Shown here: piece by piece, positions 792 to 33,177 of the stretch
How the letters are laid out: each line of letters opens with the position of its first letter
How positions within the stretch are numbered: the first letter of the stretch is position 1
DNA from: Trichocoleus desertorum ATA4-8-CV12
GTDB lineage: Bacteria > Cyanobacteriota > Cyanobacteriia > FACHB-46
NCBI GenBank assembly: GCA_019358975.1
Contig: JAHHIL010000044.1
Coordinates: forward strand, 1-50,282
Direction of reading: 5' to 3'
DNA: 50,282 nucleotides
Translations under genes and position numbers: made by a program
The notes under the pieces: generated by a model
What the model was told of the DNA's origin: nothing
Database searches by the model: none
Seen by the model: the letters and a program-made list of their open reading frames with translations, nothing else

Positions 792-1247
792 TTAGGTTTT
801 GCTTTCCAGCATAGTGATGAGCCGCCGTAACTTACCTGCTTCCTTCCGACCTTTATAGCGGCACTTTGCTTCATCTACAATTTTTTCCATTAGGGCTGGA
901 TCAGTACTGGCCTGCGTCCAAGCAGCTTCTAGAAAGACCTCAACAGTAATTCGCTGATCCTTACAGTAGCGGGTTAATTCTTGATCTAAGGACTTCTCTA
1001 GAACAATTGCGGAGTGACGACGAGTTTCAGGCAGCTTCATTAATTCCGCCCTTAGCTGCTCCAAAGTATTACCCAGCACAGGCTCTCGATCATCCTCTGG
1101 AGTGTCAGAGCTTGAGGCGATCGCCTCCTCTAGTGCTTCTCCCGCATTGGGTATCTGTTGCGATTGAGCGATCAAAGCATCACTTCTGGGTGGAACGGCT
1201 GCTTTAGTACGATTTTTGCGAATTCGATCAAGAACGCTGTCTGACAT
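792..1247 (-). CDS. ParA-partner protein, probable ribbon-helix-helix DNA-binding protein
   Basis: This 151-aa protein is encoded 64 bp downstream of parA on the same strand, the usual place for the centromere-binding partner in a type Ib-like partition locus. Residues 1-75 are polar and probably disordered. The C-terminal half has the strand-helix-helix pattern of ribbon-helix-helix proteins (RHSAIVLEKSLDQELTRYC, then a second helix near VEVFLEAAWTQ), ending in a basic tail (KCRYKGRKEAGKLRRL). It has no canonical ParB box. The partner role is inferred from position and fold pattern; no family name is recognised. Confidence 0.65.
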   Translation of the reverse strand: MSDSVLDRIRKNRTKAAVPPRSDALIAQSQQIPNAGEALEEAIASSSDTPEDDREPVLGNTLEQLRAELMKLPETRRHSAIVLEKSLDQELTRYCKDQRITVEVFLEAAWTQASTDPALMEKIVDEAKCRYKGRKEAGKLRRLITMLESKT

Positions 1248-1270
1248 AAAATTCTAACCCAAACCTTAAA

Positions 1271-1310
1271 TCAAATTTAGTAAGTTTTAAAGATCTAAAT
1301 TTAGCTTTTT
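1271..1310. promoter_or_regulatory. AT-rich repeat between parA and its partner gene
   Basis: The stretch contains AATTTAGTAAG and TTTAGCTTTTT motifs. Both recur upstream of parA (around 2124-2159), including an identical TTAGCTTTTT at 1301-1310 and 2150-2159. Repeats on both sides of a parA gene are typical of centromere or operator sites. The site function is inferred. Confidence 0.4.
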
Positions 1311-1311
1311 G

Positions 1312-2082
1312 TTAAATAAGCCTTTTAGTATTTGATACAAGTAGCTCAAATGGGTATTCCAAGTCGGCGAATCCCATTGCACTCAACGTCGTACCTTTAT
1401 TGATTGCTTGCTTATAACGCTCCGACTCTCGAATAGAGGGTAGCATCAGTTCCTCACCAACCTCCTCACGCATCCCATCTACTGCTAAGCGGCTCTCTTG
1501 ACTTTGGTTATTACCAATCCAGCGATCGCGAAATGGAAGAACTCCCATCACCTTCGCCTGAGTTGCACCAATATCTTGCAAGTTGTAGAGCAAATCGAGG
1601 GTACGCACTAGAGAGCCATAACCTTTAACTGACGCTTCGGCGGGGATGATTAAGAAATCTGCGGCTCCCATAACTGATAAGCAAATTTGCGATCGCTGAG
1701 GTGGCGCATCAATGATGCAAACCTTAAAAACATCAGCAACAGCCTCCAAGCGACGTTTGAGCAGAGTTGCTCCAACCCCACTATTAGACAGATAGTCTTG
1801 TACGTTATCCAGTTGATCATCAGACGGAATCAAAAATAAGTTGTCATTGACCTCAACTGGGTAGATACAGTCCTCAGCAGTAACAGACTTTTTAATAAAC
1901 TCCAGCAGAGTTGGTTGATTCGGCTGAAGCTCAAATCCTAAATATGTTGTGAGATTGTGCTGGGGATCAGCATCCACCATCAAGGTAGCAAAACCCTGTT
2001 GAGACAAAAGCCGCCCCAGCATTAGAGCAGCAGTTGTTTTACCCTGCCCACCTGAAAGAGAAGTGATTGCAAGAGTCAGCAT
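1312..2082 (-). CDS. parA: ParA/Soj-family plasmid partition ATPase
   Basis: This 256-aa deviant Walker-type ATPase segregates plasmid copies using ATP and a DNA-binding partner. The P-loop is near the N-terminus (residues 9-17, SGGQGKTTA). It lacks the usual KGG signature lysine and has SGG instead, so the signature Lys is absent or displaced. Walker A' (LMVDADPQHNLTTYLG) and Walker B (VCIIDAPPQ) are present. There is no N-terminal HTH, so this is a small ParA that depends on its partner, here probably 792-1247. It starts with ATG just downstream of an AT-rich region with a perfect inverted repeat. It is one of three ParA proteins on the circle. Confidence 0.92.
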   Translation of the reverse strand: MLTLAITSLSGGQGKTTAALMLGRLLSQQGFATLMVDADPQHNLTTYLGFELQPNQPTLLEFIKKSVTAEDCIYPVEVNDNLFLIPSDDQLDNVQDYLSNSGVGATLLKRRLEAVADVFKVCIIDAPPQRSQICLSVMGAADFLIIPAEASVKGYGSLVRTLDLLYNLQDIGATQAKVMGVLPFRDRWIGNNQSQESRLAVDGMREEVGEELMLPSIRESERYKQAINKGTTLSAMGFADLEYPFELLVSNTKRLI

Positions 2083-4470: not shown

Positions 4471-6834
4471 ATGAACACCGTAAAAGAAGTTACAAGCATC
4501 ACAAGTGCCTATGAACGTTACGCACAAGCTTTTCCCACAAGAATTAAAGGGTTCAAGTCAGCGCTCGTTCGGTATCTTCTGCCTTATCCAAGATTTGAAC
4601 TCGACTTTCAAGTCATTCCAGAGCAACGTTTAAGTCGGCAACAAGTTAATCAAGTTTTAGAGCAGGCTCGTAAGCTTAATATTGAAACTCTTAGCGATAT
4701 TAATCGAGTTCTAAGCTGGCAGGAAAAAATATTTGTTTCTCTTAACTCAAATCCCAATATTCGTACTGTCTACAAGTGCCATCTCAAACATTTTTTGCTT
4801 TGGTGCCAGGAAGAGGGATTAATGAAGCCCCAACGCAGCGAAGAATGGACGATTCCTATTAGCTATTCAGGTCCAAGCCGACGGCATAACCGAGGTAATA
4901 AAGGAGATTATCCAATTACAAATCGCCACTCATTAATTTCCTACGGAGCGAAGCTTGAGCAATTCTGTGAATCTGTACAGAAGCAGTTTAGAGAATTTGA
5001 CTCTTTCTGGACAGACCCTCACTATAGTAGCCGTCGCCCTATTTCAAGCATAGTGGAAGAATCGACTTATAAACTTTGTTTTCGGTATGTGTTGCAACTC
5101 CTAGGTTGGTTGACTCTTGACAAAATAGGCTACTACCACAACAGCTATGAGCATGCCCATAACATGCGAGAAAGAAATCCACGATATGAATCTGATTGGT
5201 TGCTGGTAGAGCCCCACCCCCCTCTTTGGATTGAGGAACTAAATCAGAAATATCCACCAAGAGCGATCGATCAAATAAAGTTTGAAGACTTAATTCCAGT
5301 AGTTGATATTCGTTCTAGCAAACTGGATGAATGGTTGGCTAAAAATAACACTTCCAAACAGAATTACTCCGAGTCCCAAAGCCAGCAACTATTAGACGAA
5401 ATTCAGTCTGAGCTGGCTGCAAAAAATGTATCGCTTAGTTTTCAGTTAATAGCAAGACTGGGACAAGCATTAGCACAAACTGAGGGGACTAATGCAATTA
5501 AGGCATTGAGAAATATGATACAAAGAGAGGAAGCAAAGGAACGAATAAAATTAGAAGCTCAGGATGCTGCTCAATCAGTTCGTGGCTTTCTCAACGACTA
5601 TGTTAAGTGGCTTAAATTTCAGCATAATCCTTTAAGTAGAATTGATGGTTATCGGATTAGTTCAAAGTATATTTTGGAGTTTTATCATGCTGAGCTAAAC
5701 TTAGCAAAATTTCTCTATCGAGATATTACCGATCCAGTTATGTATCCGGATTACAAAGATATTCCTGTGATCATGGAATTGCGTAGAATGCGAAGTCAGG
5801 AGGAAAATTCTCCTAGCAAGGCCAACGAGATTAATCCCATCAAACGCAATCCATCTTGGCAAGAGCTAGGGCAACTGCTCAAAAAACTACTACACTTATG
5901 TTCCCCACGACATCAACCTTGCGAGACTTGGAATGTTAATTTAGGCAGGCTGAGAACTCAACGAGGAGTGGCAAAAGATTTTCAACGTTATCTAATTGTT
6001 ATGTTCTTTCGCATTATTGCTCCTGACCGTCAGCATGTAGTTCGGGAGTTGAAGGTACACGATACTCTAAGGCTTTACTATCTCGATTGGGAAACCAATA
6101 GTTATGAGGAAGCTCCTTGGGACTCCAAGTTAAAGCGTTATAAGGTTTACTTCAACATTTACACGAAACTCTATTACTTAGACCCTGCTGATGCAAGGGA
6201 TGACAAAGGAAATGCTCCTTCTCACCCCCAGGGAAAAGCTTTCGAATGGGTGGTTGATTTAGATGAGACACAAACCAAAACTGATCGAGAAAGTACCTAC
6301 AGAGTTCCTAAAATCTACAATCCAGAATTACAAGCATGGCTTTATGGACGTGAGGATTATTCACCTACATGGCATAATTGGCCCACACAGGCTGGAAGTA
6401 AACAAAGAAGTCGTTACCGCGAAGAACAGTTCAATTGGTGCGGTTATGTGATTCCAGAGACAAAGCAACTATCTGGCTTCCGGGATATATTTCAGCCACA
6501 GCACGATAATGTTTTCACACAATTAAATGGTAATTCATTCAAGGTAGCTTCCTTGAGAGACTTATATGAGAATCTCATTTGGAATCATTTAGGTATTAGA
6601 GCTAATCCGCATGGCGTAAGAAGCTCCGCAACTAGTTATTTTGAACGTCAAGGCATGACGCACTCAGAGAGCAAGTCTTTGGCTACTCTAAAAAACCACA
6701 GTGTTGAAATGCAAAATAGCTCAGCATATAACAAGTTGAAGGCTTTAGAAAAAACTGCACAAGCTTCCAGAATGATTACAGAAGACTTTCTAAAGGAGCA
6801 TAATTTGAACTCAGACGAATACGGACTTGCCTAG
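4471..6834 (+). CDS. Large tyrosine recombinase (787 aa)
   Basis: A site-specific recombinase of the phage-integrase superfamily, recognised from its C-terminal catalytic boxes. The first Arg lies in FFRIIAPDRQ (R520 or R514). The HxxR box is NPHGVRSS (H714, R717), followed by NHS (H743) and the nucleophile candidate Tyr753 in SSAYNK. The first roughly 450 residues are predicted arm- and core-binding regions and are unusually long compared with 300-400 aa integrases. Such long integrases occur on cyanobacterial plasmids and islands. The ATG follows an inverted repeat by 4 bp and has no ribosome site, so translation may be nearly leaderless. A shorter counterpart is at 36020-37948. Likely roles are dimer resolution or integration; targets are unknown. 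Confidence 0.82.
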   Translation: MNTVKEVTSITSAYERYAQAFPTRIKGFKSALVRYLLPYPRFELDFQVIPEQRLSRQQVNQVLEQARKLNIETLSDINRVLSWQEKIFVSLNSNPNIRTVYKCHLKHFLLWCQEEGLMKPQRSEEWTIPISYSGPSRRHNRGNKGDYPITNRHSLISYGAKLEQFCESVQKQFREFDSFWTDPHYSSRRPISSIVEESTYKLCFRYVLQLLGWLTLDKIGYYHNSYEHAHNMRERNPRYESDWLLVEPHPPLWIEELNQKYPPRAIDQIKFEDLIPVVDIRSSKLDEWLAKNNTSKQNYSESQSQQLLDEIQSELAAKNVSLSFQLIARLGQALAQTEGTNAIKALRNMIQREEAKERIKLEAQDAAQSVRGFLNDYVKWLKFQHNPLSRIDGYRISSKYILEFYHAELNLAKFLYRDITDPVMYPDYKDIPVIMELRRMRSQEENSPSKANEINPIKRNPSWQELGQLLKKLLHLCSPRHQPCETWNVNLGRLRTQRGVAKDFQRYLIVMFFRIIAPDRQHVVRELKVHDTLRLYYLDWETNSYEEAPWDSKLKRYKVYFNIYTKLYYLDPADARDDKGNAPSHPQGKAFEWVVDLDETQTKTDRESTYRVPKIYNPELQAWLYGREDYSPTWHNWPTQAGSKQRSRYREEQFNWCGYVIPETKQLSGFRDIFQPQHDNVFTQLNGNSFKVASLRDLYENLIWNHLGIRANPHGVRSSATSYFERQGMTHSESKSLATLKNHSVEMQNSSAYNKLKALEKTAQASRMITEDFLKEHNLNSDEYGLA

Positions 6835-8003: not shown

Positions 8004-8798
8004 TCAAATCGTAAATAAGGCCTTCAGTGTTTTGACCTTAGCTGCATCAATCTCACAATCCATTTTGGTAATGGGATTCAAGCTCTTCCATTTACTTCTA
8101 TTTGCGTTAGCGACCAGCTTTGACACTTTTTCAGGATCAACAGTGTCAAAGCCACCGATTTTGTGAGTGGTTAGATAATTTAAGCGTTCGAAAATTTCCT
8201 GTTCAGATGCTTGTTTGATACTGATAGTAGATGGTGGTTCAGGCGGTGGGGGTGGCGGTGATAGGTAAAAGGCAGCCGCTAATGTATCTAGCTTCTTGCC
8301 CTTGGTTATGCCGCACTTGAGTTTGACGATAGGGGTGAAGTCCTGCCAAGTAGTTCGATCTTCAGCTGCAATCCTAGTGGCTGCGATTGTCGTATCTACA
8401 CCTTTCAATGAGCTTCCTGGCTGGCTACCAAGATGCTTCAAGACTAACTGGATTGTTTCTCTAGTAGCTGTTGTAAGGTCAATCTTTGGGGTAACTTCGC
8501 CAGCCAAAATACGAGCTTGTTCGATATCTGGCCCACTAGACTTAATGACAAGGCACCAGAGTTCTTCTAGACCCGCATGGGCAGCAACTACATAGACAAA
8601 GTGATTAGTAACGGCTTGGTACTTATAGTCCTCTACCTCTTCAACAATCAGTGGTATCCAGTTATGCCCCTCAGTTTTTAGAAGTGCATCAGCCGCAGCA
8701 GCAATGATATATCTGGAAGGAGCTGAATAATGATCAGCAGGCAAAATGTCGTCTAATGGGAGGCACATCAGTTGCCCAACATTATCGAAATCACTCAT
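8004..8798 (-). CDS. ParB-like partner of the nuclease-ParA fusion
   Basis: A 264-aa protein whose start overlaps the stop of the upstream ParA-fusion gene by 8 bp, so the two are translationally coupled. The N-terminus (LPLDDILPADHYSAPSRYII, then QAVTNHFVYVVAAHAGL) resembles the ParB/sulfiredoxin fold. A six-proline linker separates two similar C-terminal units: one containing ITKGKKLDTLAAAFYL and a second, ending the protein, containing IDAAKVKTLKALFTI. Both have helix-turn character. This looks like a partition or specificity subunit; the exact family is not recognised. An 'ILPAD' loop in place of a full ParB box makes CTPase activity uncertain. Confidence 0.6.
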   Translation of the reverse strand: MSDFDNVGQLMCLPLDDILPADHYSAPSRYIIAAAADALLKTEGHNWIPLIVEEVEDYKYQAVTNHFVYVVAAHAGLEELWCLVIKSSGPDIEQARILAGEVTPKIDLTTATRETIQLVLKHLGSQPGSSLKGVDTTIAATRIAAEDRTTWQDFTPIVKLKCGITKGKKLDTLAAAFYLSPPPPPPEPPSTISIKQASEQEIFERLNYLTTHKIGGFDTVDPEKVSKLVANANRSKWKSLNPITKMDCEIDAAKVKTLKALFTI

Positions 8799-10155
8799 TT
8801 AAGAAATACTCCCTGGCTAAAGCAAGATAATATTCGTGAATTCTCTTGTGCTTCAAAACAGCCGGAACACGAGCAAAGGCACCGCTAGAAACTGCTGCAT
8901 ACTCCGGGAGATTGAATACAGTTTTGTCTATGTTGCCAGGAACGATCCTAGGAAAGAAGTATGGTGCTAGGTTGAGATTGCTTGCCGCCTTTGCCGCCCC
9001 AATAATCTCGTCAATTTCTTCTCTTGCCATATCGATCGCACGCCCATCAGAAGGACTGCCATTGAAGAAGATGGGGAGAGCAATTGGTCCACCGTCCTGC
9101 CTTAACTCTTTTACTTTAGGAACAAACTCCTGCACAACTCTGGCAGCATTATGAAGGGACGATAGGTCGTTATGGCGAGTAGGAATCAACACCGTATCAG
9201 ATGCATACACTCCACTCTGGCTAAAGAAGACCCATTGAGTTGGGCAGTCGATAAAGATGTAGTCATACTCATTAATAAATGGCTTCAGCAAATCTCTTAG
9301 CCGAGCAGACGCTTTTTGAACACGGGCTTGGGTATCTTGGGTAAAAGCTTCCATTCCGAGATCGGCTGGTATCACGTCAAAAACGTGATAGACTTTGCTC
9401 GATTTGCTAGCATTTTGAACTAGCTTATATGGCACGATAGTCGAGCGAATATCTAGCGTCCTATCTTTTAAGCATTCAGACAATTTAATATTGTTCGGCT
9501 TTAACCCCAGCGCTGTTGTCAAGTCACGCTGAGAGTCAAAGTCAACCAGCAACACCTTCTTTTTCTGTGTCGCTAGCGTCGATGCCAGATTGACAGTCGT
9601 TGTGGTCTTGCCTACACCACCCTTGTTGTTATAAACACAAACACAAAGGCCACGAACAGTATTCTCAATCAGTTTCTTAATACTACTGATGACAGCTTCG
9701 ATATTTACTTCACTAATTTCGATGCACTTGGTAGCGGGTACAATGACCTTATCGTGATGTCTGAAAAGTTGAATGTGTGTTGAATTGGTAATGATACCCC
9801 ATTGAACAGTCTTTCCTTTTGGAGAGAGTAAATACCGTTTTATCTGTTCTCGCGTCCGCACGTACTGGCTAGAGCCTTCTGTCAAATTAATGGAGCTGCC
9901 TGCATTTGTGAAGCGACCCTTAATTTCAACCATTAAAACAGGGTCATTTCTAGTAAAACTGAAGACATCATCCGCAGTATTTTTGCGAGCGGCAAAATCG
10001 ACGCAGTCGCCTCCTACTCCAGTCGCAAACTGCCCTGCACGCTCCGTTGTGTCAAATCCCAGTGCTTCTAACAAGTAGGGTATAAAATGGGTGCCTACGT
10101 CGTTTTCTATAGCTTTCGGGGGAATGTTAGCTAAAACGGCACTCCAATCTATCAT
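8791..10155 (-). CDS. Restriction-type nuclease domain fused to a ParA ATPase
   Basis: A two-domain protein of about 454 aa. Residues 1-150 resemble the N-terminal domain of type I restriction HsdR subunits: NDVGTHFIPYLLEALGFD, then a PD-(D/E)XK-like core with VGGDCVDF (D52/D55) and LMVEIKG (E79, K81). From about residue 172 it is a ParA ATPase with Walker A NNKGGVGKTTTT, VLLVDFDSQRDLTTALG and a Walker B YIFIDCPTQ. The signature lysine is present. Start 10155 chosen for spacing to AAAGAGG; ATG 10161 is 6 bp upstream. It forms an operon with the ParB-like gene. Whether the nuclease fold is catalytic or only DNA-binding is unknown. Confidence 0.82.
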   Translation of the reverse strand: MIDWSAVLANIPPKAIENDVGTHFIPYLLEALGFDTTERAGQFATGVGGDCVDFAARKNTADDVFSFTRNDPVLMVEIKGRFTNAGSSINLTEGSSQYVRTREQIKRYLLSPKGKTVQWGIITNSTHIQLFRHHDKVIVPATKCIEISEVNIEAVISSIKKLIENTVRGLCVCVYNNKGGVGKTTTTVNLASTLATQKKKVLLVDFDSQRDLTTALGLKPNNIKLSECLKDRTLDIRSTIVPYKLVQNASKSSKVYHVFDVIPADLGMEAFTQDTQARVQKASARLRDLLKPFINEYDYIFIDCPTQWVFFSQSGVYASDTVLIPTRHNDLSSLHNAARVVQEFVPKVKELRQDGGPIALPIFFNGSPSDGRAIDMAREEIDEIIGAAKAASNLNLAPYFFPRIVPGNIDKTVFNLPEYAAVSSGAFARVPAVLKHKRIHEYYLALAREYFLNE

Positions 10156-10321
10156 TACCATTCCTCTTTAGAGTACCTAGCTATCTTCATACGTTACTTC
10201 TCCATAAGAAGGCTACATTTCTAAAGTGCCCTATTTATTTGGGATTTCACCTGCACTTCATCGCACACTAATAGGCAGGGAATGAAACCGTTGTACTCAT
10301 CCCCTGTCCATAAACACTAGC

Positions 10322-10672: not shown

Positions 10673-13144
10673 ATGGGCACGCGATCGCTCCAGGCCTCGC
10701 AAAAAGGGATCGAGAAGGCAAAAGTTGCTTTAGCTCACTATTCGCTCAACCAAAATGCTCTAGCAGAAGATTTGGGGCTCTCCCGGCAGACCATCAACAA
10801 ATTCTTCAAGGGGAAGCCGATCGACCGCGAGAACTTTGCTCTCATTTGCGATCGCCTGGGGTTGAATTTAGAAAATACGGTCGCGATCAATCATGTGGCC
10901 TCTGAACCTAATGAGCTAAGCGATCGCCCCTACATAGATGCCGTAGTTCAAGAAGTTAGGCAAAAAGTCTACGCCAGTATTCAGAAGCGATGTGGCACCA
11001 TGCGGGTATTGGACATGGAGCAGCCCATCTCACTGGACTCCATTTACACCAAAGTCAACATTTTGGAGAAAGTCAGCCGCAATCAACGACGAACAATCGC
11101 GGAACTGCTAGAAGGATGTGACGTAAAAGACTTCGATCGCTTTACATTGGGTCGTGTCTGGCAGGAGCCAATACCAGGATTAGAGGCCGTTCAGCGTCAT
11201 GACAAACTCCTCATTCTAGGTAAACCTGGAGCCGGGAAAACCACGTTTCTCAAATGGCTAGCGATTCAGTGTAACGAGGGACAATTGTACACCAATCGAG
11301 TGCCGATGTTTGTCACCTTGAAGGAGTTCGCTGAACAACCAGGACAGCCCAGCTTGCAATCCTTCATTTGCTCCCAGTTTGAGGCCTGTGGAATTGATGA
11401 TGCCGTGAAGACGACCGAAATCCTGTTGCAAGAGGGGCGATCGCTGGTTTTATTAGATGGGTTAGATGAAGTTCGGGATGTAGATCACGATCGTGTGTTG
11501 CAAGAAATCTGTAGTATTTCTGCCCTGTGTCATGCCAGCCAGTTTGTCATTACCTGCCGGATTGCTGCCCAAGAGTATACCTTTGAGCAGTTTACAGAGG
11601 TTGAAGTTGCTGACTTCGATGATGACCAGATTGCTGAGTTTTCCCAGAACTGGTTTCATCGGAAAAACCCAACCAAAGCAGACCAATTTCCCAAAGAACT
11701 GAAAACCCACAAACGTCTGACAGAACTAGCAACTAATCCTCTACTTCTTACCCTTCTATGTCTAGTATTTGAAGAACGGGCAGACTTTCCGACAAACCGA
11801 GCAGAACTCTACAAGGAAGGTTTGGACATCTTACTGAAGAAATGGGATGTCAAACGCAACATCAAGCGAGATGACGCCTACAAAGACTTGTCTTTGAAGC
11901 GTAAGGAAGACTTATTGAGCCAGATTGCCTTTACTACCTTTGAAGGAAGTGAGTATTTCTTCAAGCAAAGGGTAGTAGAGCAGCAAATCGAGCAATACAT
12001 CTGGAACCGACCGAATGCCAGTACTAACCCGGAAGCATTGCAAATTGATAGTGAGGCTGTTTTGAAATCCATTGAGGCACAGCATGGACTATTGGTAGAA
12101 AGGGCACGAGGCATTTACTCCTTCAGCCACCTGACTTTTCACGAGTATTTTACTGCTCGTCGAATTGAAAAGCGTGATGAACTATATCCATTTCTCATTT
12201 CCCATTTGACCGAGAAGCGATGGCGAGAAATCCTGCTATTAACGGTAGGGATGATGGAGGAGGCAGACTCTCTGCTGCTTAAGACGAAGTTTCGGATTGA
12301 TAAGATGCTGGCAACTGACGAAAAACTTCAACAATTTCTTAACTGGGTTCAGCAGAAATCTTGCTCAGCAAACGTGCCCTACAAACCCGCTGCCGTTCGA
12401 GCGTTCTACTTTGCCCTCGAAATTGCCCAAACCCTCAACCTCGACCGCTTCTTCAACCTCGACCTCGACCACGCCCTCAAACTTGCCCGCACTGTTGACG
12501 AAGGCCTCGACCTCGACCTCGACCTCGACCTCGGCCTCGACTTCGGCCTCGCCCGTTCCCGTATCTACGCCCATGCCCTCAATTTCGACTGCAACGACGA
12601 CCGCTTCTTATCCCTCAACCTAGCTGTCGGCCTGGCCCGTGAGCGCGCCCTCGACCACTTCTTCAACCTCGACCTCGACCTCGACCTTGAGCGCTTCATC
12701 GGACTCGATCCCGAGCGCTTTCTCGACTTGCTCCGTGACCTCAACCTCGACCTCGACTGGTTCCTCAGCCTTGCCCGCGCCCACAGCTACGCCCTTGCAC
12801 TCTACCAATCCCTTGCCAAACTTAAGGAACAACTTCCAGATCCTTGGGAAAATTGGGATTATATTCAACAATGGTGGCAGGCTAATGGTTCATCCTGGGT
12901 AATCCAACTAAGAGCCGTGATGATTGAACATCACAATATGTGGCATGACTGGCAGTTTAGCGCTACCGAGATAAAACAACTGCAGCAATATTACGATGCC
13001 AACAAATTGCTAGTTGAGTGCCTTAACAGTGATTGCCAGGTTAGCCAAGAAGTTCGTGAGGAAATCGAAGCCAGTTTGCTACTTCCTATCGAAGAGATCA
13101 AGCACCGCTTCCCCAATCAACTGAACAACCCCAGCACCTCTTAA
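10673..13144 (+). CDS. HTH-NACHT STAND ATPase with Leu-Asp repeat C-terminus (probable anti-phage)
   Basis: An 823-aa STAND ATPase. Residues 8-72 form a Cro-like HTH (LAEDLGLSRQTINKFFKGK). The NACHT domain has Walker A LGKPGAGKTTFLK (about 182-194) and Walker B LVLLDGLDEV (about 258-267), followed by the helical NACHT arm (THKRLTELATNPLLLTLLCL) and a winged-helix region (YSFSHLTFHEYFTARRI). The C-terminal 240 residues hold degenerate Leu-Asp repeats (LDLDLDLD and FFNLDLD), probably the sensor. Bacterial NACHT proteins (bNACHT) are known anti-phage NTPases; that role is by family. The same N-terminal HTH type occurs in the pentapeptide protein at 48834. No separate effector domain is visible. 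Confidence 0.88.
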   Translation: MGTRSLQASQKGIEKAKVALAHYSLNQNALAEDLGLSRQTINKFFKGKPIDRENFALICDRLGLNLENTVAINHVASEPNELSDRPYIDAVVQEVRQKVYASIQKRCGTMRVLDMEQPISLDSIYTKVNILEKVSRNQRRTIAELLEGCDVKDFDRFTLGRVWQEPIPGLEAVQRHDKLLILGKPGAGKTTFLKWLAIQCNEGQLYTNRVPMFVTLKEFAEQPGQPSLQSFICSQFEACGIDDAVKTTEILLQEGRSLVLLDGLDEVRDVDHDRVLQEICSISALCHASQFVITCRIAAQEYTFEQFTEVEVADFDDDQIAEFSQNWFHRKNPTKADQFPKELKTHKRLTELATNPLLLTLLCLVFEERADFPTNRAELYKEGLDILLKKWDVKRNIKRDDAYKDLSLKRKEDLLSQIAFTTFEGSEYFFKQRVVEQQIEQYIWNRPNASTNPEALQIDSEAVLKSIEAQHGLLVERARGIYSFSHLTFHEYFTARRIEKRDELYPFLISHLTEKRWREILLLTVGMMEEADSLLLKTKFRIDKMLATDEKLQQFLNWVQQKSCSANVPYKPAAVRAFYFALEIAQTLNLDRFFNLDLDHALKLARTVDEGLDLDLDLDLGLDFGLARSRIYAHALNFDCNDDRFLSLNLAVGLARERALDHFFNLDLDLDLERFIGLDPERFLDLLRDLNLDLDWFLSLARAHSYALALYQSLAKLKEQLPDPWENWDYIQQWWQANGSSWVIQLRAVMIEHHNMWHDWQFSATEIKQLQQYYDANKLLVECLNSDCQVSQEVREEIEASLLLPIEEIKHRFPNQLNNPSTS
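12434..12770 (+). repeat. CTCGAC hexanucleotide-rich repeat tract inside the NACHT gene
   Basis: Repeated CTCGAC (Leu-Asp) units, some perfectly tandem around 12507-12535 and 12668-12690, encode the Leu-Asp-rich C-terminal region. The same hexamer builds the repeats in the gene at 44193. Such tracts are prone to slippage in steps of two residues without frame loss. Confidence 0.8.
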
Positions 13145-17322: not shown

Positions 17323-18483
17323 TCAGGTATAGAGGATAGTTCTAATTGCCCCAATGGTACTGGATAAGACATGAGCTGCTGCCTCAACTTCCTCATTAGT
17401 CGTGAACTTACCTATTCCAATCCGGAGTGCACCCTCAATCAAAGATTCTGGAAGAGCCATTTCATGGAGAACATGAGAGGGAGTTTCAATACCAGTTGAA
17501 CAAGCTGCTCCTGTAGAAATTGCTATTTTTTGACGAACCCTAGCAATAATTGCACTGTTGGGAATGTTTGGAATTGAGATGTGAAGGTTTCCTGCTAGTC
17601 GATTCTCAGCATCCCCATTGACTATCAAATCGGTTACTTCTCTAGATAAGAGAGCTTGAAGACGGTCGCGCTTGCTTGCGATCGCCCTTTCATCCTCCTC
17701 CATCTCCAGCGATCGCAACCGGCAAGCTTCTCCCAACCCTACAATCCCTGGAACGTTAAGAGTGCCCGATCGCATTCCTCGCTGATGACCACCACCAAAT
17801 ATAAGTGGTTCCAATTGATAGCCTCTACGCACAGCTAGCGCTCCAACACCTTTAGGACCGTAGAGCTTGTGGGCAGAGATTGCTAGGTAGGTGATGCCCC
17901 ACTCTTCAAATTGCATGGGAATTTTACCGACTGCCTGAGAGCCATCACATAGAAAAGGAATGCCATAGCGTTGAGCAATTCGCCCAACCTTTTGAATAGG
18001 GTAAATGTTGCCAATCTCGTTGTTAGCTGCCATGACACAGAGCAGAGACATCCCCTTAGTGCAGACCTGCTCCAAATGTTCGAGGTCAAGCCTGCCTCTG
18101 GAATCTATTTGCAGATAAACTAGTTCAGCACAACCTCGCTTCTCTAAAGCGCGACAGGTATCAAGGACTGCTTTGTGTTCGATCGGCATTAAGCCAATTC
18201 GATGGGGGTTTGTGGAGTTAGGGGTTAGGCCCCCCTGAATTACTAGATTGATGCTTTCAGTTGCACCGGATGTCCAAACAATTTCCCCCGGTGAGGCTCC
18301 TATGAGGTCAGCAACTTGTTTAGCAGCTTGCTTAACAGCGGTCTCAGCGCGATCGCCCTGCTCATGATCAGTGCTGCTAGCGTTGCCAAACTCTGTAACC
18401 ATGTAATGGTAAATGCGATCAGCTACTCGTGGATCAACGGGAGTTGTTGCATGGTAATCAAGATAAATCACACTTCTAATCAC
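17323..18483 (-). CDS. sspA: Cysteine desulfurase of the phosphorothioation system (SspA/DndA)
   Basis: A 386-aa class V aminotransferase-fold enzyme of the IscS/NifS/DndA type. It takes sulfur from cysteine as a persulfide and passes it to the DNA-modifying enzymes. The PLP lysine is K206 in ISAHKLYGPKG, and the persulfide cysteine is C328 in STGAACSTG. The N-terminus YLDYHATTPVDPRV is typical. It starts with GTG, 9 bp after the stop of the DndB-like gene, and is the last gene of the operon. Its place beside sspBCD and a DGQHR gene marks it as the dedicated sulfur donor rather than housekeeping IscS. Confidence 0.9.
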   Translation of the reverse strand: MIRSVIYLDYHATTPVDPRVADRIYHYMVTEFGNASSTDHEQGDRAETAVKQAAKQVADLIGASPGEIVWTSGATESINLVIQGGLTPNSTNPHRIGLMPIEHKAVLDTCRALEKRGCAELVYLQIDSRGRLDLEHLEQVCTKGMSLLCVMAANNEIGNIYPIQKVGRIAQRYGIPFLCDGSQAVGKIPMQFEEWGITYLAISAHKLYGPKGVGALAVRRGYQLEPLIFGGGHQRGMRSGTLNVPGIVGLGEACRLRSLEMEEDERAIASKRDRLQALLSREVTDLIVNGDAENRLAGNLHISIPNIPNSAIIARVRQKIAISTGAACSTGIETPSHVLHEMALPESLIEGALRIGIGKFTTNEEVEAAAHVLSSTIGAIRTILYT

Positions 18484-18492
18484 CTATTAGTC

Positions 18493-19818
18493 TTAATCTT
18501 CTTCATCTTCCTCGTGAGGTTGATCATTTTGTCCAGACCAATTGATAAGTGGAAGTAGGGAAGCTTTTTTATTACCAATAGCATCACGATATTTCTGCTT
18601 GAGCTCACGAACTTTTACTGATGTTCTAAGCCCTAAAGCATGGTTGATCATTGTGGCGATGAGTGATCTCTCTTTTCTTCCACCAATAATGGAACGTGCT
18701 AATGGATTCCAGATTACACCTGCCCAGGGTGCATCATCAATATTCATTGAAACCTGAGTCATAATTGCTACAATTACATCTGGAATTGACTTTCTTTGAA
18801 TACCAGCTTGTTTGATAACCTCTGCAACAACATACTGACCAACTGGACGTAGAAAAACATTACCACCATAAATAAGTTTTTGATGGTCGTTTATAGTAGG
18901 TAAACCATCAGAATCAAGGAGAAGACGGAGATCACCCGGTTTTTTTCTCCCGCTTTTAACAGCATCAAATCCAGGGCAACAATCGAGCATCTTTTCCCAT
19001 ATTTCTTCTAAAAACAAATAATATTTATCCAAATCATCACTTGAAGGTCTAAATCTTTTGAAATCGTTATCAATTTGTAGACCCCCTTCATAAGCACTAA
19101 GCAGAATCTCGTTTACTTCATACAGAGAGGCAAGCGTTGTAATGTACGATTCATTTGCTTTACTTGGTGCAAGTTGCTTAGAGCCCAAAGTATTTAAAAC
19201 TAATCCTTTTAACACATTACTTTCTTTTACCAATCGACGTGAAATGATCGCTACTCCGTCATCTTCATCAATGGCAATATTCATACCAGAAGATGTTGGT
19301 TTTGCGCGCCGATTGAGAGTAGAAAATAATCTGCGAGTTCGTTGTAGCCCTTCCTTAGAATCCTCATGTTTAAGGATAATTACAGTAATCTCTTCTTTTG
19401 CCAAGTCAGGTTCTATCTTTATGGCTTCTTGGATAGACTTTAATCTGTGTTGTCCATCCAAAGCGTAGTAGACCTGACTTCCATCAAAACGAAGTAATCC
19501 AAAGCCATAACTGCCTCTGTCTTTATCATCTAGGAGTTCATGCTCATCAACTCTTACTGGTGAAAACTCTGGTTCTCCTCCATAAACAGCCACGACTAAA
19601 GCACCGTAGAATCGCTGCGGCTCATGGATAAGGTAAGGAACCATTTCTTTTTCAACACGATCTTGAATTGCCCTTTGGATTAAAGCATCAAGATCCTTAT
19701 CTGTATGAATTTCCTCTGCAAGCCTACACTCACGGGCGACTTTACCCAATTTCATTACGGTAACGTAGTATCTCCAATCACCCATCCGAGCTTGTAATGC
19801 TGGCACGTAATCTGGCAC
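18493..19818 (-). CDS. dndB: DGQHR-domain protein, DndB-like
   Basis: A 441-aa protein with the diagnostic motif YYALDGQHRLKSI (DGQHR at residues 121-125), an extended helical middle and an acidic tail (QPHEEDEED). DGQHR proteins are found with dnd clusters; DndB acts as a transcriptional regulator and influences where DNA is modified, with ATP- and DNA-binding activity reported for the family. Start is GTG 19818, with AGGAGA upstream. It sits 28 bp after the GIY-YIG gene and 9 bp before the cysteine desulfurase. A DndB homologue beside single-strand-type ssp genes is a mixed arrangement. Confidence 0.85.
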   Translation of the reverse strand: MPDYVPALQARMGDWRYYVTVMKLGKVARECRLAEEIHTDKDLDALIQRAIQDRVEKEMVPYLIHEPQRFYGALVVAVYGGEPEFSPVRVDEHELLDDKDRGSYGFGLLRFDGSQVYYALDGQHRLKSIQEAIKIEPDLAKEEITVIILKHEDSKEGLQRTRRLFSTLNRRAKPTSSGMNIAIDEDDGVAIISRRLVKESNVLKGLVLNTLGSKQLAPSKANESYITTLASLYEVNEILLSAYEGGLQIDNDFKRFRPSSDDLDKYYLFLEEIWEKMLDCCPGFDAVKSGRKKPGDLRLLLDSDGLPTINDHQKLIYGGNVFLRPVGQYVVAEVIKQAGIQRKSIPDVIVAIMTQVSMNIDDAPWAGVIWNPLARSIIGGRKERSLIATMINHALGLRTSVKVRELKQKYRDAIGNKKASLLPLINWSGQNDQPHEEDEED

Positions 19819-19846
19819 TTTTCTTTCTCCTAGACAAATGTACTTA

Positions 19847-20356
19847 TCAAAATGCTTTACCCCAGTGTTTCTGTCTATCAGGGATAATTTCGTTACATGG
19901 AGTTCGGCAACACATAAGAAGATGTTCTTCTACAGCATCTACATGAATTCGAGGTAGTTCAGCCCACCAAAAAACTAAGCGATTACGATATTTATTAAGC
20001 ATAAATACTACTTTTTTTCGACCCGTAATATTTTTTGCCTCTATAAGATAATCTTTATACCTTTCCGAAAGATATTGTTGAGCAGCTTTTCCAATGTACA
20101 AGGGAATATGAAGGTCTTCTGCAAAAGGCTTTCCTAATTTCGTTGAAAAGCAATACACTCCATACTTATTTGGGATGGAAGTTTGAGCATCACGAATAAA
20201 ATTACACTTTTGCCAGTTCAACTGAATAGCTTGCATCGCTACTGGAAACTCTTCTATATATTGTGGAAGCCATCGGAGGGTGAACTCGTAGTCTTTTGCA
20301 AATCGCCCTGCAATAGCTGCCTTCTGAGTAGCAAAATCATAGGGAGCATCAACCAT
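19847..20356 (-). CDS. GIY-YIG nuclease-domain protein in the phosphorothioation operon
   Basis: A 169-aa protein with all landmarks of the GIY-YIG catalytic core: NKYGVYCF, then PLYIGKA, the conserved Arg in LSERYKDYL, the metal-binding Glu in AVEEHLLMC and the Asn in TPCNE. About 60 N-terminal residues precede the nuclease domain. GIY-YIG enzymes cut DNA with a divalent metal. It lies between sspD and the DndB-like gene on the same strand, 329 bp after sspD. It could be the restriction arm missing from this island, or a repair or nicking accessory; that is inference. Confidence 0.75.
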   Translation of the reverse strand: MVDAPYDFATQKAAIAGRFAKDYEFTLRWLPQYIEEFPVAMQAIQLNWQKCNFIRDAQTSIPNKYGVYCFSTKLGKPFAEDLHIPLYIGKAAQQYLSERYKDYLIEAKNITGRKKVVFMLNKYRNRLVFWWAELPRIHVDAVEEHLLMCCRTPCNEIIPDRQKHWGKAF

Positions 20357-20685
20357 TTCCGTCTACCATTGGCGGGCTTCTAGTCCATTTTGCCCCGATT
20401 GCTTGGTAATGTAACCGTTGCCTCCAGGTAAGGATCTTTGGTTGTTACCGGGTTCCCTTCGGGGCACCCCCCGATTGCCCAGCATATTCGCCGCGATCGC
20501 TCAATCTTGAGTATTATGGCGAATTTGGTTGATCCAGGTGAGGAGCGATCACAAATTTGCCTTATCCAGTGAAGATTTAGGAAACAGCTATATGTTCTTA
20601 ATGGCAGGCTGCGGTTAAACTGACGTAGCCTATTTGCATTGAGGGGTTAGAGGGCTGAGTATCATAGCGTCTACTTCCTTGATCA
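20357..20685. other. Intergenic region between sspD and the GIY-YIG gene
   Basis: 329 bp without a credible gene. It contains a hairpin with a TTCG loop (GGGTTCCC/GGGCACCC around 20450-20469) that may terminate or attenuate the sspBCD transcript, and HIP1-type sites. It probably also holds a promoter for the GIY-YIG, dndB-like and sspA genes. No boxes are strong enough to name. Confidence 0.45.
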
Positions 20686-21492
20686 CTATAAGTGACATGC
20701 CAAACAGGGTAACGTGTCATCATCTTCATCGAGTACCGCTTCCAGCACTTCTGCCAACGGTTGATTGGGCTTTGTTTTTGCCTCTCGTACGATCGCTCGT
20801 TCATGGTCTGCAATAATTTCATCCTTACGTGCTAGCAATCCCAGCAATGTTTCGCCCTGCGTCCAAGTGTAGGTTCGACCATCGCTATGGTTTTGCTCGT
20901 AGGCGATCGCCTTGGCAAATAGGTCAGGATGCTCCTGCGCTAGCATCACCCACTCATACTTCCGCTGGAAGAAGCAGAAGTAACATCCTGAGCGACTGCG
21001 CCAGCGGTAATAGTCTGGTAAGCCAATGCCACTTTCCTCTAACAACCGAATAATATCTGCCTTAACTAGCCCATGTTCCTTAAAGGGGTAACGGGCTTGA
21101 ATTGTTGGCTTTGTCGAAATATAGCCTTCCCGGTGTTCATCTGCACGAATGCCAATATAGCTGATGGCATCGTCATCACCGATAAACTCCTCCAAAGGCT
21201 TAATCTTCATTTGTTTTGTACACCATCGCACTTGAGGAGATGGCAAAACGCCTCCATACACCTCTAACCAATGGTCAAAACCGCGATCGGCACTTAAGCG
21301 AATAATTTTGATACCCAGCCGAGCCTCAATGCGATCGAGATAATCATAAGTTTCTGACAGTTCCTTGTGGGTATCACAGAAAAAATACTCCATCGGCAGG
21401 TCAGGGTACTTTTGTCGCATCAGCACCGCTAGGGCAGTACTATCCTTACCCCCTGAAAGCCCCAGAATATGTCGAATGGGCTGCTTCACCAT
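20686..21492 (-). CDS. sspD: PAPS-reductase-family ATP pyrophosphatase (SspD/DndC-like)
   Basis: A 268-aa adenine-nucleotide alpha-hydrolase of the PAPS reductase family. The PP-loop is SGGKDS (residues 13-18). Cysteines in VRWCTKQMK and RSGCYFCFF fit the Fe-S cluster site described for DndC. It activates the DNA backbone phosphate or carries the sulfur during phosphorothioation. It is about half the length of DndC and similar to SspD of the single-strand Ssp system, which agrees with the DUF4007 and ATPase genes upstream. It starts 5 bp after the sspC stop, so it is the third gene of a tight operon. Confidence 0.86.
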   Translation of the reverse strand: MVKQPIRHILGLSGGKDSTALAVLMRQKYPDLPMEYFFCDTHKELSETYDYLDRIEARLGIKIIRLSADRGFDHWLEVYGGVLPSPQVRWCTKQMKIKPLEEFIGDDDAISYIGIRADEHREGYISTKPTIQARYPFKEHGLVKADIIRLLEESGIGLPDYYRWRSRSGCYFCFFQRKYEWVMLAQEHPDLFAKAIAYEQNHSDGRTYTWTQGETLLGLLARKDEIIADHERAIVREAKTKPNQPLAEVLEAVLDEDDDTLPCLACHL

Positions 21493-21497
21493 CTCCC

Positions 21498-24400
21498 TTA
21501 ATCCACCACCTTCGTTTTCCGTTTACCCCGCCTCTGACGGACTTCCTTCAATTCGTCGGGGGTTTGTACCTGCAACACCTCTCTTGCCAATTTAGCAATC
21601 AAAGCTTGCCGCAGTTTAGCATCGTTCCGGAGGGTCGGCTTGTCTAAGATCTCATCCACTAACCGATTCAGTTGTTCTTCCTGGGTCTGGTCAATCCAGA
21701 CAACCTGGTTTAGTTCGTGTCCGTCTGATTTGGTGACGGTAAGCCGATATGCCTCAAAGCCTTCATGGTCAGTCGCTGCAATATCTTTTTGTAAGGCTTC
21801 TAGTCGCTTAAACTGTCGAGCAACATCATTCAGCTTCAATTCAAAGGCAGCGCGATCGTCATCGCTCCAAGTATGGGCAGGCTTATCTGCCAAAATCATC
21901 ATCAGGGATTCTAACCACTCCGTATCTGCCAACATGGTATCGCTCGCCGCTAGCGTAAAGCGCCTCAGCATTGGCTCCAAGCAGCGATCGACCAAGTAGT
22001 TGGCTCTCACACGCAAATCAGGCCGCAAATGCTCTAGGTTACTACGGACTCCGAAAGCAGCATGAAGCAACTGCCGACCAGTACTCAGGAGATTTTCATA
22101 GGTAATCTCTAATTCATGAAGTGCTTTAACCAACCGTTTGCGGAAGGTTCGTGCCGCCGATTCATCATTTGGATCAGCATGCCGAATGGGAGCCAACCCA
22201 CAGGCTTGAGGCAGACTAGTAAACAATAGTTTATCTGGCTCTTGAGCTGTTTGCAACGTTTTCAGGACTGCCTGAGCTTCAGCACTCAGTTGTTGAGTTT
22301 TCAGGGTGTAGGCTGGCAGCTTCTTGACGAACTGGAACAACGGCTTGGCGATCGCCAAGAGCGAAGTGTTCCGTACTCCCGCAGGGACTCGACTCCGCCA
22401 AATAGCTTCCAATTCTTGAAAGACCTGGGATCGCAGCCCTGCCATTTCAAACGATTTAACGGCAAACCGTCCGGGTTGTTTCACTAACAACTCAAAATGA
22501 GGAGCCGTCAACACCGGAACAAACGTCCCATCATGATAAAGCCCGACATCATCAACGTGGTAAAGCAGCATAGCAGCTAACAGCACTGGGATTACCCCTG
22601 GTTTAACGCCATAGGGTGGAGCCCCTAGCAAGGCGTATAGCTGATCGAGGCTGCGCGGTTGTTCAGCAGATTTCAAACAAAAGGATTCAACTGACTGCCA
22701 GAGACTTGATAAATCTGTCCTGCCATTGCCTTTTTGTTTGGCAGAACGATTTGCAATTGGCGGATAGAAACCCCATTCTCCATTCTCCTGGCGGTGAATC
22801 CCTGGCTCTGCCAGCACCGAGTAATACATGCTCACTTCAGGACCATAGCCCTTCAGTCCCAATTTCTCCTGATCTTCATGGTTCAGCATGCCTTCAATCA
22901 ACTCACGCCGCGCCTTTGCCCCTTGAGAGGTAAGTTCTCGCCGGTTAATCAATTCATTCCAAAGAGTAGGGCTATGGCAATAGACCTTCTCACACACCTC
23001 CGATAATGCTGCATTGAGATCGGCGCTATCTCGAATCTCCTGCTGTTCTCCTAAAAACCAGGAAAAGCTTTCAGAATTAGCGGGATCAAGTGCCTGAGTT
23101 AATGTCTCATCCATCAAGTTTTCTGCTTGCACCAACCGCTGCCGCACTTCCCGCCGAGCAACCCCATCCGTTTGCAATTCTGAAGCGGTTGATTGAATCT
23201 TTTCTAAGGCGGCAAATTCGATCGCGCGGTCGCGCAAGGTTTTGAGATGAGCCGTATTAACCACAATAAGAGGCTTACCATCTTTAGTGGTAGAAGGGGG
23301 AGCTTCTACAAGAGGTTGTGCCTCCATCCAGTACACGATCAAGCCGTCATAATCTGGCTTAGATACTTGAAGGGTGGATAGGTCATGAGTCTTATCTCCA
23401 TATCGCCGCTCAAAATAGCGGAGGGTTCCCACTCGGTAACTGTGGCGTTGAGCAACCAATGGTTTTAAGGCACGCACCCGTGACAAGATCTCAACTAGCG
23501 ATCCCCGTTCTTGTTCAAAATACTGGTCGATCGCAATCTGAACATTGAAATCAGATCCCTCCCAGATTCGCAGTTCATCCAACTGCTTACGGTAAGTAAT
23601 TAGGTTTTTCTCTAAAAGGGTTTGAATCGCCGTTTGCCAAGGGTTATCGCTAGTCGTTTCATCAGGCGACTCACACAATGGCAAGATTGACAGGGCTTGA
23701 GTTGCCCGTAGTGCCCCTGCCGATGTAATTAAATTAAGCGTACCAATCGTCTTGAGTGCCTGAATTACTTCAGGTGACAGATCCATTCGACGGCTGGCAT
23801 CTGCAACAACCCCCTGAACCTCTAGCCACTTCTGAACATTGGGACGAGATGACAACCCCATCCCTGCTGACTCTACAAAATAGTCGTAAACCTGATGGAT
23901 TTTTAGCGTTGGAATTAAATTTTTATTGAGAGCCGTTGAATCTAAGAATTGCTTAAAGGAATATGGCTCAGAACTCGTCAGGAAGGTAAAGAGAGAGCGA
24001 TCGTTTTGAGCATACCTCGTACACAGCTGGGGTAATACCAGAGAGGTCAGTGGATGAAGTGGATAAGCCTCTGCTAGTACCGCAGACGACAAATCACTTA
24101 ATTCTAGGTGCTCAGCTAGATGCTCAAACCATACCGTTGCTCGTTGCTGAATTAATTCTTTCAAAGCGCCTGCTTCGTTATGGATAATGGCTTGTCCCAG
24201 TAAACGAGTCATCTGTTCCGGCGATTCTGTGAAGGGAATATCCTCAAATCGCCCGTGAATTTTTGACCATTCTTTCCGCTCACTGGAAGCTAACCGTTCT
24301 CCGTAATCCCCAAAGGATTGGTGCAACACCCCAACGAGATACACCTGATAAGGCGTACGTTCAGGGAGTTCTGCGATTTGCTGCAACAGGTATAAGTCTG

Positions 24401-25043
24401 CAACGCCTTGATGTTGAGCTGCAAACTCCAACGTCTTGCCTAACTCATCAATCAGGAGTAGGACATCCGTCTTTGCTGCCTGCGCCACTGCCTGAATCAG
24501 TTGCAGAACTTGCTTTTCCTCAATCGAGTGACCAGCGGCAAGCTCTATCTCTAAGTCTACTAAATCAGCCAATATCTCTGGCTTCTTGCGGCTCCTTCGC
24601 CAAAATATTTCAACCCCTCGCCTTAATGCACGGACGATGGTATGACTGAGAGGCTCCCGCTGAGCAGTGCTAACTGCTTGCACGAGTCCCCGCCGTGGCA
24701 ATCCATCCGTAAGCGCTTGTAGCTCAGGACTGGCTGATCCCAGTGCCCGCTCTGCGATTGTCAACGCTTTTTGTCGCACAGGGCCAGCCTCTGACGCACA
24801 AAGCCCTGCCCAAAAGTGAGCAAATGCTGATTTACCTGTACCGTAAACCCCAGTCAGTGTCCAGGCACGTTGAGGGCTATTTTTAGTAAAAGCAGGTAAC
24901 ATGCGCCGTAACGCATCCACTGCTCGTTCCGTCACAATGTATCCTTCTACAGCATCTGGCAATTCCAGATCTCGCTCTAAATTAACCGAGCGAGCATAGC
25001 GACGGTTGAGGCTAAAGTACTGCGATAAAAATTTTTGAGCCAT
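21498..25043 (-). CDS. sspC: Large ATPase of the phosphorothioation system (SspC-like)
   Basis: A 1181-aa P-loop ATPase. Walker A is TGVYGTGKSAF (about 64-74) and Walker B DVLLLIDELGK (about 193-203), followed by a sensor-like region (VYLVGVLHQSFGDYGERL). The remaining roughly 900 residues are mostly helical without a domain I recognise. Identity as SspC rests on size, the P-loop and the exact position between the DUF4007 gene (5-bp gap) and the PAPS-reductase gene (5-bp gap), the SspB-C-D order. SspC is thought to supply ATP-driven action on DNA during modification. Confidence 0.82.
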   Translation of the reverse strand: MAQKFLSQYFSLNRRYARSVNLERDLELPDAVEGYIVTERAVDALRRMLPAFTKNSPQRAWTLTGVYGTGKSAFAHFWAGLCASEAGPVRQKALTIAERALGSASPELQALTDGLPRRGLVQAVSTAQREPLSHTIVRALRRGVEIFWRRSRKKPEILADLVDLEIELAAGHSIEEKQVLQLIQAVAQAAKTDVLLLIDELGKTLEFAAQHQGVADLYLLQQIAELPERTPYQVYLVGVLHQSFGDYGERLASSERKEWSKIHGRFEDIPFTESPEQMTRLLGQAIIHNEAGALKELIQQRATVWFEHLAEHLELSDLSSAVLAEAYPLHPLTSLVLPQLCTRYAQNDRSLFTFLTSSEPYSFKQFLDSTALNKNLIPTLKIHQVYDYFVESAGMGLSSRPNVQKWLEVQGVVADASRRMDLSPEVIQALKTIGTLNLITSAGALRATQALSILPLCESPDETTSDNPWQTAIQTLLEKNLITYRKQLDELRIWEGSDFNVQIAIDQYFEQERGSLVEILSRVRALKPLVAQRHSYRVGTLRYFERRYGDKTHDLSTLQVSKPDYDGLIVYWMEAQPLVEAPPSTTKDGKPLIVVNTAHLKTLRDRAIEFAALEKIQSTASELQTDGVARREVRQRLVQAENLMDETLTQALDPANSESFSWFLGEQQEIRDSADLNAALSEVCEKVYCHSPTLWNELINRRELTSQGAKARRELIEGMLNHEDQEKLGLKGYGPEVSMYYSVLAEPGIHRQENGEWGFYPPIANRSAKQKGNGRTDLSSLWQSVESFCLKSAEQPRSLDQLYALLGAPPYGVKPGVIPVLLAAMLLYHVDDVGLYHDGTFVPVLTAPHFELLVKQPGRFAVKSFEMAGLRSQVFQELEAIWRSRVPAGVRNTSLLAIAKPLFQFVKKLPAYTLKTQQLSAEAQAVLKTLQTAQEPDKLLFTSLPQACGLAPIRHADPNDESAARTFRKRLVKALHELEITYENLLSTGRQLLHAAFGVRSNLEHLRPDLRVRANYLVDRCLEPMLRRFTLAASDTMLADTEWLESLMMILADKPAHTWSDDDRAAFELKLNDVARQFKRLEALQKDIAATDHEGFEAYRLTVTKSDGHELNQVVWIDQTQEEQLNRLVDEILDKPTLRNDAKLRQALIAKLAREVLQVQTPDELKEVRQRRGKRKTKVVD

Positions 25044-25048
25044 TTACC

Positions 25049-32555: not shown

Positions 32556-33177
32556 AGTGTATCGCCTCCTCAAAGAGCTTGTTATAGTCTTTAGTTGCTG
32601 AAGTAGCAGCCTCACCAGTCATGCTGAATACAGTGGCAGCTTGCCCTGGCGCATCAGCAATAACTTGACGTTGGTAAATCACTGAGTTTAATAGTTTAAA
32701 GCCTTGAGTCTTTCTTAAGGCTTCTTGTGCCTCTCTAAGCAAGACTGTCCCTCGGGCTGCTCGGCTCAAGAACATGGCTGCTCTAGGCAGCCCTTTACGA
32801 ATTTTCTGTGCTTGATTGACTAAGCGAACGATATCCTTTGCTGAGAGCAAATCTAGATTAGAAGGTTGAACTGGAACAAGTGCTAAGTCAACACTTAACA
32901 ATACTGATTTAGCTGGTTCTCCGAGAACTGAGGGTGAATCCACAATCACGGAATCATACTCTTCAGTAAACTTACCAATTTGATCAAACAAGTCGTCTGG
33001 ATCATTGATCACAACAGAGGGCATGTCCAGCTTTTTAAGCCACTGGCTAGAGCTTGCTTGCCCATCTGCATCGATTAGCATAACGCGCTGTTGCTGCTGG
33101 AATAGCCAGTAGGCAAGATGCACTGCTGTTGTTGACTTCCCACAGCCACCTTTTCGATTGAGGACTCCAATCAGCAT
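32527..33177 (-). CDS. parA: ParA-family partition ATPase (small type)
   Basis: A 216-aa small ParA without N-terminal HTH. Walker A is NRKGGCGKSTTAVHL with the signature lysine, Walker A' is VMLIDADGQASSSQWL, and the Walker B region is YDSVIVDSPSV. It works with ParB encoded downstream, overlapping by 29 bp. A perfect 12-bp palindrome lies 31 bp upstream of its start. It is the only ParA in the 16014-38296 half, whereas the other half has two. Confidence 0.93.
   Translation of the reverse strand: MLIGVLNRKGGCGKSTTAVHLAYWLFQQQQRVMLIDADGQASSSQWLKKLDMPSVVINDPDDLFDQIGKFTEEYDSVIVDSPSVLGEPAKSVLLSVDLALVPVQPSNLDLLSAKDIVRLVNQAQKIRKGLPRAAMFLSRAARGTVLLREAQEALRKTQGFKLLNSVIYQRQVIADAPGQAATVFSMTGEAATSATKDYNKLFEEAIHYGETEEPAR

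Follow-up and report, generated by a model that had tools for sequence, protein, structure and literature searches.

The window analysed here, a contig of 50,282 nucleotides from the cyanobacterium Trichocoleus desertorum ATA4-8-CV12, carries an identical stretch of 127 bp at both ends and is therefore taken as a complete plasmid, circular and about 50.15 kb long (~50,155 bp). Its minus strand includes a two-gene cassette composed of a fusion gene and an overlapping partner gene:

8791..10161, minus strand: fusion gene, 456 aa, an HsdR_N-type PD-(D/E)XK domain followed by a complete ParA/Soj-type ATPase
9652..10161, minus strand: nuclease-like domain of the fusion (residues ~1-170), with E19, D55, E79, K81 and Q106xxxY110
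8791..9651, minus strand: ParA ATPase domain of the fusion (residues ~171-456), with the deviant Walker A motif KGGVGKTT at 180-187, D209 and D305
8004..8798, minus strand: partner gene, 264 aa, overlapping the fusion gene by 8 bp, with a ParB-N/Srx fold (residues 9-102) and two helical modules (104-183 and 189-264)

A first-pass annotation had proposed a nuclease domain ahead of a complete ParA, with a ParB-like partner, and this architecture was borne out, both open reading frames lying where it had placed them. The ParA half matched AAA_31 in Pfam (2.3e-34), and in a structure model of the fusion (pLDDT 92.1, pTM 0.92) residues 169-456 aligned with Soj/ParA structures with Z-scores of 28-30 (Soj, Z 29.9). 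The whole-model fold search was dominated by ParA and its list holds no nuclease fold; the identity of the nuclease domain comes solely from sequence profiles and motif conservation. In profile searches, HSDR_N_2 was matched by 18 of 21 N-domains of the family (best 3.8e-7) and HSDR_N by 10 of 21, while the window's own N-domain searched alone gave a sub-threshold match (HSDR_N, E=0.017) and no match to PDB sequence profiles. Among PADLOC profiles, only the P-loop region of the fusion was recognised (PDC-M28B, 4e-8, over 38 residues); no full-length match was obtained for the fusion and none of any kind for the partner.

We refer to the family of the window's fusion as group I. Searching relatives with HSDR_N_2 revealed more HsdR_N-ParA fusions, most of them followed by a ParB-N-like partner (groups II and III). 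In 101 non-redundant group I fusions, the putative catalytic residues are retained almost without exception (E19 in 101, D55 in 99, E79 in 101, K81 in 100 and Q106 in 99), as are K180, K185, D209 and D305 of the ParA half (101/101). Conservation of the nuclease motif in 98-100% of these homologues is far beyond chance. Accordingly, three of the residues put forward earlier, D55, E79 and K81, stand as conserved, and D52, which had been listed beside D55, does not: it is kept in just 23 of 101, and D55 is the catalytic aspartate. We also weighed a reading of the pair as a mildly unusual ParAB variant whose N-terminal domain is vestigial, or binds DNA without cutting it. PD-(D/E)XK folds can be inactive, and degenerate single copies exist in the family (L044 and L142): L044 retains neither D55 nor K81, and D55N occurs in a second homologue. 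Such a reading is nevertheless very improbable given the conservation of E19, D55, E79, K81 and Q106 among diverse group I copies and, in 38 of 38 full-length copies of groups II/III, of the corresponding E, D, E and K residues, although identity is far lower in the rest of the protein. A degenerate nuclease as a trait of the family was rejected on the same grounds, and a chance fusion or assembly artefact was rejected in view of more than 100 non-redundant full-length copies.

The partner is less apparent at the sequence level. No Pfam family matched the window partner above threshold, and PDB sequence profiles gave weak ParB matches. Its model (pLDDT 93.4) places residues 9-102 on ParB (7bnk_A, Z 13.3, rmsd 2.0 over 91 residues), and the two helical modules weakly match GspK and ComEA (Z 6.3 and 6.7). 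Across 28 partners of the family, ParB_N was matched by 22, Rho_N by 15, SAP by 8, HeH by 4 and HhH by 1, and the parS-binding HTH (HTH_ParB) by none. The window partner reads NHFV in place of the ParB GERR motif (CTP, P motif GxxR). At the equivalent positions, assigned by motif spacing and not by structure superposition, partners read N-x-F-(V/I), the two arginine positions being occupied by F in 90 of 97 and by V or I in 96 of 97. To judge from these sequences, neither the HTH domain of ParB nor the GERR motif survives in the partner, which carries HhH-like or Rho_N/SAP modules in their place. Upstream of the loci, inverted repeats of 8 bp or longer occurred at 14 of 116 (about 4 expected); they were mostly unlike in sequence, and none was present in the window. 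No shared parS-like motif was found in these upstream regions, where the commonest 10-mers stem from closely related loci.

Of 386 cyanobacterial genomes sampled, 45 encode the group I N-domain, almost always in an ORF of roughly 450-470 aa. A scan of GTDB contigs with one degenerate peptide pattern, which distant non-cyanobacterial fusions could escape, gave 109 relatives, and the 80 loci kept were all cyanobacterial, as were all plasmid matches with full-length coverage. No match to the family occurred among phage records; among viral contigs one matched, with Rad52-like and HTH-M78 genes nearby. The fusion-partner pair is known from more than 100 cyanobacteria, and in nearly all intact loci the partner lies directly downstream, the two genes as a rule overlapping by 4 or 8 bp. 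Distances among fusions and among their partners are strongly correlated (97 pairs, Mantel r 0.94, a value reached in 0 of 1000 permutations); therefore the two genes travel together. No third gene is conserved with them: no other cluster was common to more than 8 of 41 neighbourhoods, nor did a methylase recur in these. Some loci depart from the usual layout. Three group I fusions lie by ribosomal S2/EF-Ts genes, and no partner was found directly downstream of them (L069, L070 and L071), and in three Okeania loci (L137, L138 and L140) fusion and partner are separated by 360-620 bp.

Partition functions are also encoded elsewhere on the plasmid:

31641-33177: canonical parAB (ParB_N 9.8e-32 and HTH_ParB 1.8e-11, plus ParA)
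1312-2082, minus strand: further parA, ~6.7 kb from the cassette
within 792-2082, minus strand: 151-aa protein following this parA, with sub-threshold family matches only

The annotation had spoken of a normal parA pair 6 kb away. The parA gene is indeed present at 1312-2082; a ParB beside it was not shown, and the canonical pair is the one at 31641-33177. Its view that the cassette is not the main partition locus held, and we rejected that role since both the canonical parAB and the further parA share the circle. The closest relative plasmid (G060:C29, 34.4 kb, circular by an end-overlap test) comes from a different family, and the sole DNA similarity found between the two covers just the cassette (8056-10154 of the window, 73% identical). 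This plasmid and a 35.7-kb plasmid of Nostoc UHCC 0870 each carry other ParA genes. Another ParA thus accompanies the cassette on 3 of 3 plasmids examined, two of which have a canonical ParB. Far from serving as the only partition locus of many plasmids with decayed nuclease residues, the cassette coexists with other ParA genes, occurs in many chromosomal copies and keeps its nuclease residues. Two further proteins of these plasmids were recorded. A 123-aa ORF of G060:C29 (L288, 9334-9705), located away from the cassette, is 29% identical to the partner. In the window, a 787-aa protein (4471-6834, plus strand) matched nothing credible in Pfam, PADLOC, PHROG or NCBIfam; an HGVR...Y pattern in its C-terminus may, by eye, resemble that of tyrosine recombinases.

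The plasmid also carries a phosphorothioation set and two NACHT genes:

17323-18483, minus strand: SspA, phosphorothioation set
18493-19818, minus strand: DndB-like, phosphorothioation set
20686-21492, minus strand: SspD, phosphorothioation set
21498-25043, minus strand: SspC, phosphorothioation set
25049-25966, minus strand: SspB, phosphorothioation set (whole set 17323-25966)
10673-13144, plus strand: NACHT protein 1, with N-terminal HTH and NCH2, oriented divergently to the cassette and ~0.5 kb upstream
28349-30697, plus strand: NACHT protein 2, ending in a GUN4 domain

No SspE match was found by the phosphorothioation set. A divergent 692-aa ORF beside it (26185-28263) gave a sub-threshold HNH_repeat match only.

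To see the surroundings of the family more widely, we compared 142 neighbours of 25 group I loci with 94 control proteins from 20 arbitrary regions. The excess of defence genes was weak (Mrr type IV at 2 loci, one type II RM pair, AAA_21 and PIN), the control matches being mostly TnpB-like false positives, and many group I copies are located among housekeeping genes. DUF29 was among the most frequent Pfam matches near these loci (4 of 142 proteins).

Evidence for mobility came from one genus (G127), in which the cassette occurs in 2 of 16 species, flanked by a methyltransferase gene and an msrA-like gene. These neighbours lie 218-242 bp apart in three sister species, where the site is empty. 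The two filled copies share 64% protein identity, compared to 95-98% for the flanks. Filled and empty sites, together with divergent copies between near-identical flanks, fit a hotspot where the cassette has been gained or replaced more than once. The two overlapping genes, their occurrence on plasmids and their presence in a hotspot beside toxin-antitoxin-like genes would suit an addiction or post-segregational killing module, in which the partner restrains a toxic nuclease fusion and loss of the cassette exposes cells or replicons to attack. However, a 456-aa fusion and a 264-aa partner are unlike a labile antitoxin pair, and the three loci by the S2/EF-Ts genes keep a fusion that would be toxic there if the partner were its antitoxin. 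We consider addiction improbable.

The group I cassette was present in 7 of 7 sampled Microcystis genomes. As simple pairwise counts, not model-based tests, dN/dS was ~0.62 for the Microcystis group I fusion (95 nonsynonymous and 45 silent variable codons) and 0.11 for its partner (Fisher p 0.0004 against the fusion), with flanking genes at 0.007-0.18. In these strains the group III pair gave, by the same type of count, 0.22 for the fusion and 0.44 for the partner, which is there the faster of the two. One Microcystis copy is broken. Fusion alleles in Microcystis are mosaic (L046, L049, L050, L051, L078, L320, L122 and L123), with variation densest at residues 261-280 and 386-435 and the catalytic residues constant. 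Between the window and G060 copies, pairwise dN/dS was 0.10 for the nuclease domain and 0.06 for ParA, with synonymous sites (pS) near saturation, values that indicate a divergence under strongly purifying selection.

Groups II and III have the same architecture and are mostly chromosomal. Of 373 genomes, 63 contained them: group II and group III queries matched the same 63, with essentially one copy each. Profile comparison links their N-domains to those of group I (prob 99.2, E 2.8e-19) and, more weakly, their partners (prob 97.1, E 4.8e-11). In several families the site is near ileS, beside a divergent stand-alone ParA. The genome of the window has such a locus on contig C5 (L180): a group II fusion and a ParB-like partner (L180:3986-6285 and L180:7255-8193) adjoin a stand-alone ParA at the ileS-side site. 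Groups II and III thus look more resident than mobile, which makes DNA maintenance a serious rival and the main one, if less probable than the reading favoured below. According to this explanation, the pair positions or segregates a plasmid or a polyploid chromosome, and the nuclease deals with intermediates, for instance broken ends, multimers or entangled copies. Polyploidy is common among cyanobacterial chromosomes, both the ParA and ParB-N folds are kept, and the conserved ileS site with its stand-alone ParA and the purifying selection between window and G060 copies all agree with it. Against it are the partner, which lacks HTH and GERR, the absence of a common upstream parS-like motif, the other par loci on the same plasmids, and a patchy presence, most species of the G127 genus being without the cassette at an otherwise conserved site.

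Comparison with known systems gives only partial likenesses. The cassette resembles ParABS in its ParA fold with deviant Walker A, its ParB-N fold partner and its gene order, ParA first with the partner overlapping downstream. It differs in bearing a nuclease on ParA, in a partner with HhH-like or Rho_N/SAP modules in place of HTH and GERR, in its coexistence with ordinary parAB, and in that parS was not found. With the type I restriction subunit HsdR (HSDR_N) it shares an N-terminal PD-(D/E)XK domain with the order E...D...ExK...QxxxY; here, the ParA ATPase stands in place of the motor, and the SF2 translocase, HsdM and HsdS are lacking. A type I RM subunit was rejected, as the 456-aa protein has no helicase domain and the module no HsdM or HsdS. 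McdA is likewise a cyanobacterial ParA-type ATPase, and its structures are among the fold matches of the fusion; the McdA/McdB system has no nuclease domain, and McdB is not of the ParB fold.

Cooperation of a ParB/Srx fold with a nuclease has precedents. SspE (PMC13251355) and GmrSD (PMC4619093) are ParB/Srx-fold NTPases coupled to a nuclease, and in SspE a GTP switch licenses cleavage (PMC13251355). In both, a DUF262 domain (DGQxR) and an HNH nuclease are united in one protein or complex, whereas the cassette has its ParB fold in a separate partner without DGQxR, a PD-(D/E)XK nuclease and ParA as NTPase; DUF262 was matched neither in the fusion nor in the partners. Osa has a ParB/Srx fold and a role in plasmid-plasmid competition (Maindola 2014, as cited in PMC13251355 and PMC10853773). 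Osa is a stand-alone protein that acts on conjugation and is not known to include a ParA-nuclease fusion. A survey of ParB-CTPase fusions (PMC12704722) presents a DUF3850 fusion as the sole one consistently adjoining parA, and the portion consulted does not name the present family. No description of an HsdR_N-ParA fusion with a ParB-like partner was found in open-licence PMC papers, which is no proof of novelty.

Taken together, these results lead us to favour, with a probability of roughly 0.45, a nuclease-effector ParA/ParB-like module that would act on foreign or competing DNA and form a self-contained, horizontally moving two-gene cassette. In established ParA systems, an ATP-bound ParA dimer binds DNA non-specifically, and its partner stimulates the ATPase. 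By analogy, the ATP-bound ParA dimer of the fusion would sit non-specifically on DNA, and the partner, probably co-produced by translational coupling as the overlapping layout suggests, would read a DNA feature or structure through its HhH-like or Rho_N/SAP modules and govern the cycle of ATP hydrolysis, in the way that ParB governs that of ParA. When the partner meets ParA on the wrong DNA, the nuclease domain would be licensed to cut. The purpose would be an attack on incoming or competing DNA, plasmid or phage, as defence or inter-replicon conflict and not replicon inheritance.

In favour of this conflict reading we count the catalytic residues kept in group I (99-101/101) and groups II/III (38/38); the partner immediately downstream, with correlated distances (r=0.94) and no third conserved gene; the other ParA or parAB on 3/3 plasmids and the two plasmids sharing the cassette alone; the filled and empty site in the G127 genus and the raised dN/dS of the Microcystis fusion; the SspA/B/C/D, DndB and two NACHT genes on the same plasmid; and the precedent of SspE (PMC13251355) and GmrSD (PMC4619093). 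Against it we count the weak defence-gene excess with many copies among housekeeping genes; the conserved chromosomal ileS site of groups II/III, which is like that of a resident function; the lack of an immunity gene (methylase), a difficulty for self/non-self discrimination; and a raised dN/dS that could reflect relaxed constraint, as the broken Microcystis copy and the homologue without D55 and K81 illustrate. The earlier suggestion of plasmid competition is compatible with the broader DNA-conflict reading; a purely plasmid-centred version is too narrow because the distribution is wider than plasmids.

We also propose, tentatively and at somewhat less than even odds, that the family represents a new cyanobacterial class of DNA-conflict system, in which ParA would deliver an HsdR-type nuclease to DNA picked by the ParB-fold partner, group I being the mobile branch and groups II/III the mostly chromosomal one. 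The cassette family is widespread in cyanobacteria, bloom-forming Microcystis included, and easy to overlook, as Pfam names the ParA half of the window fusion alone and nothing in the partner. Textbooks present ParA/ParB pairs as the machinery that moves DNA and cargo, and PD-(D/E)XK domains as the one that destroys foreign DNA. A conserved family in which both active sites are kept suggests that ParA-type gradients or DNA scanning may be used to target a nuclease.
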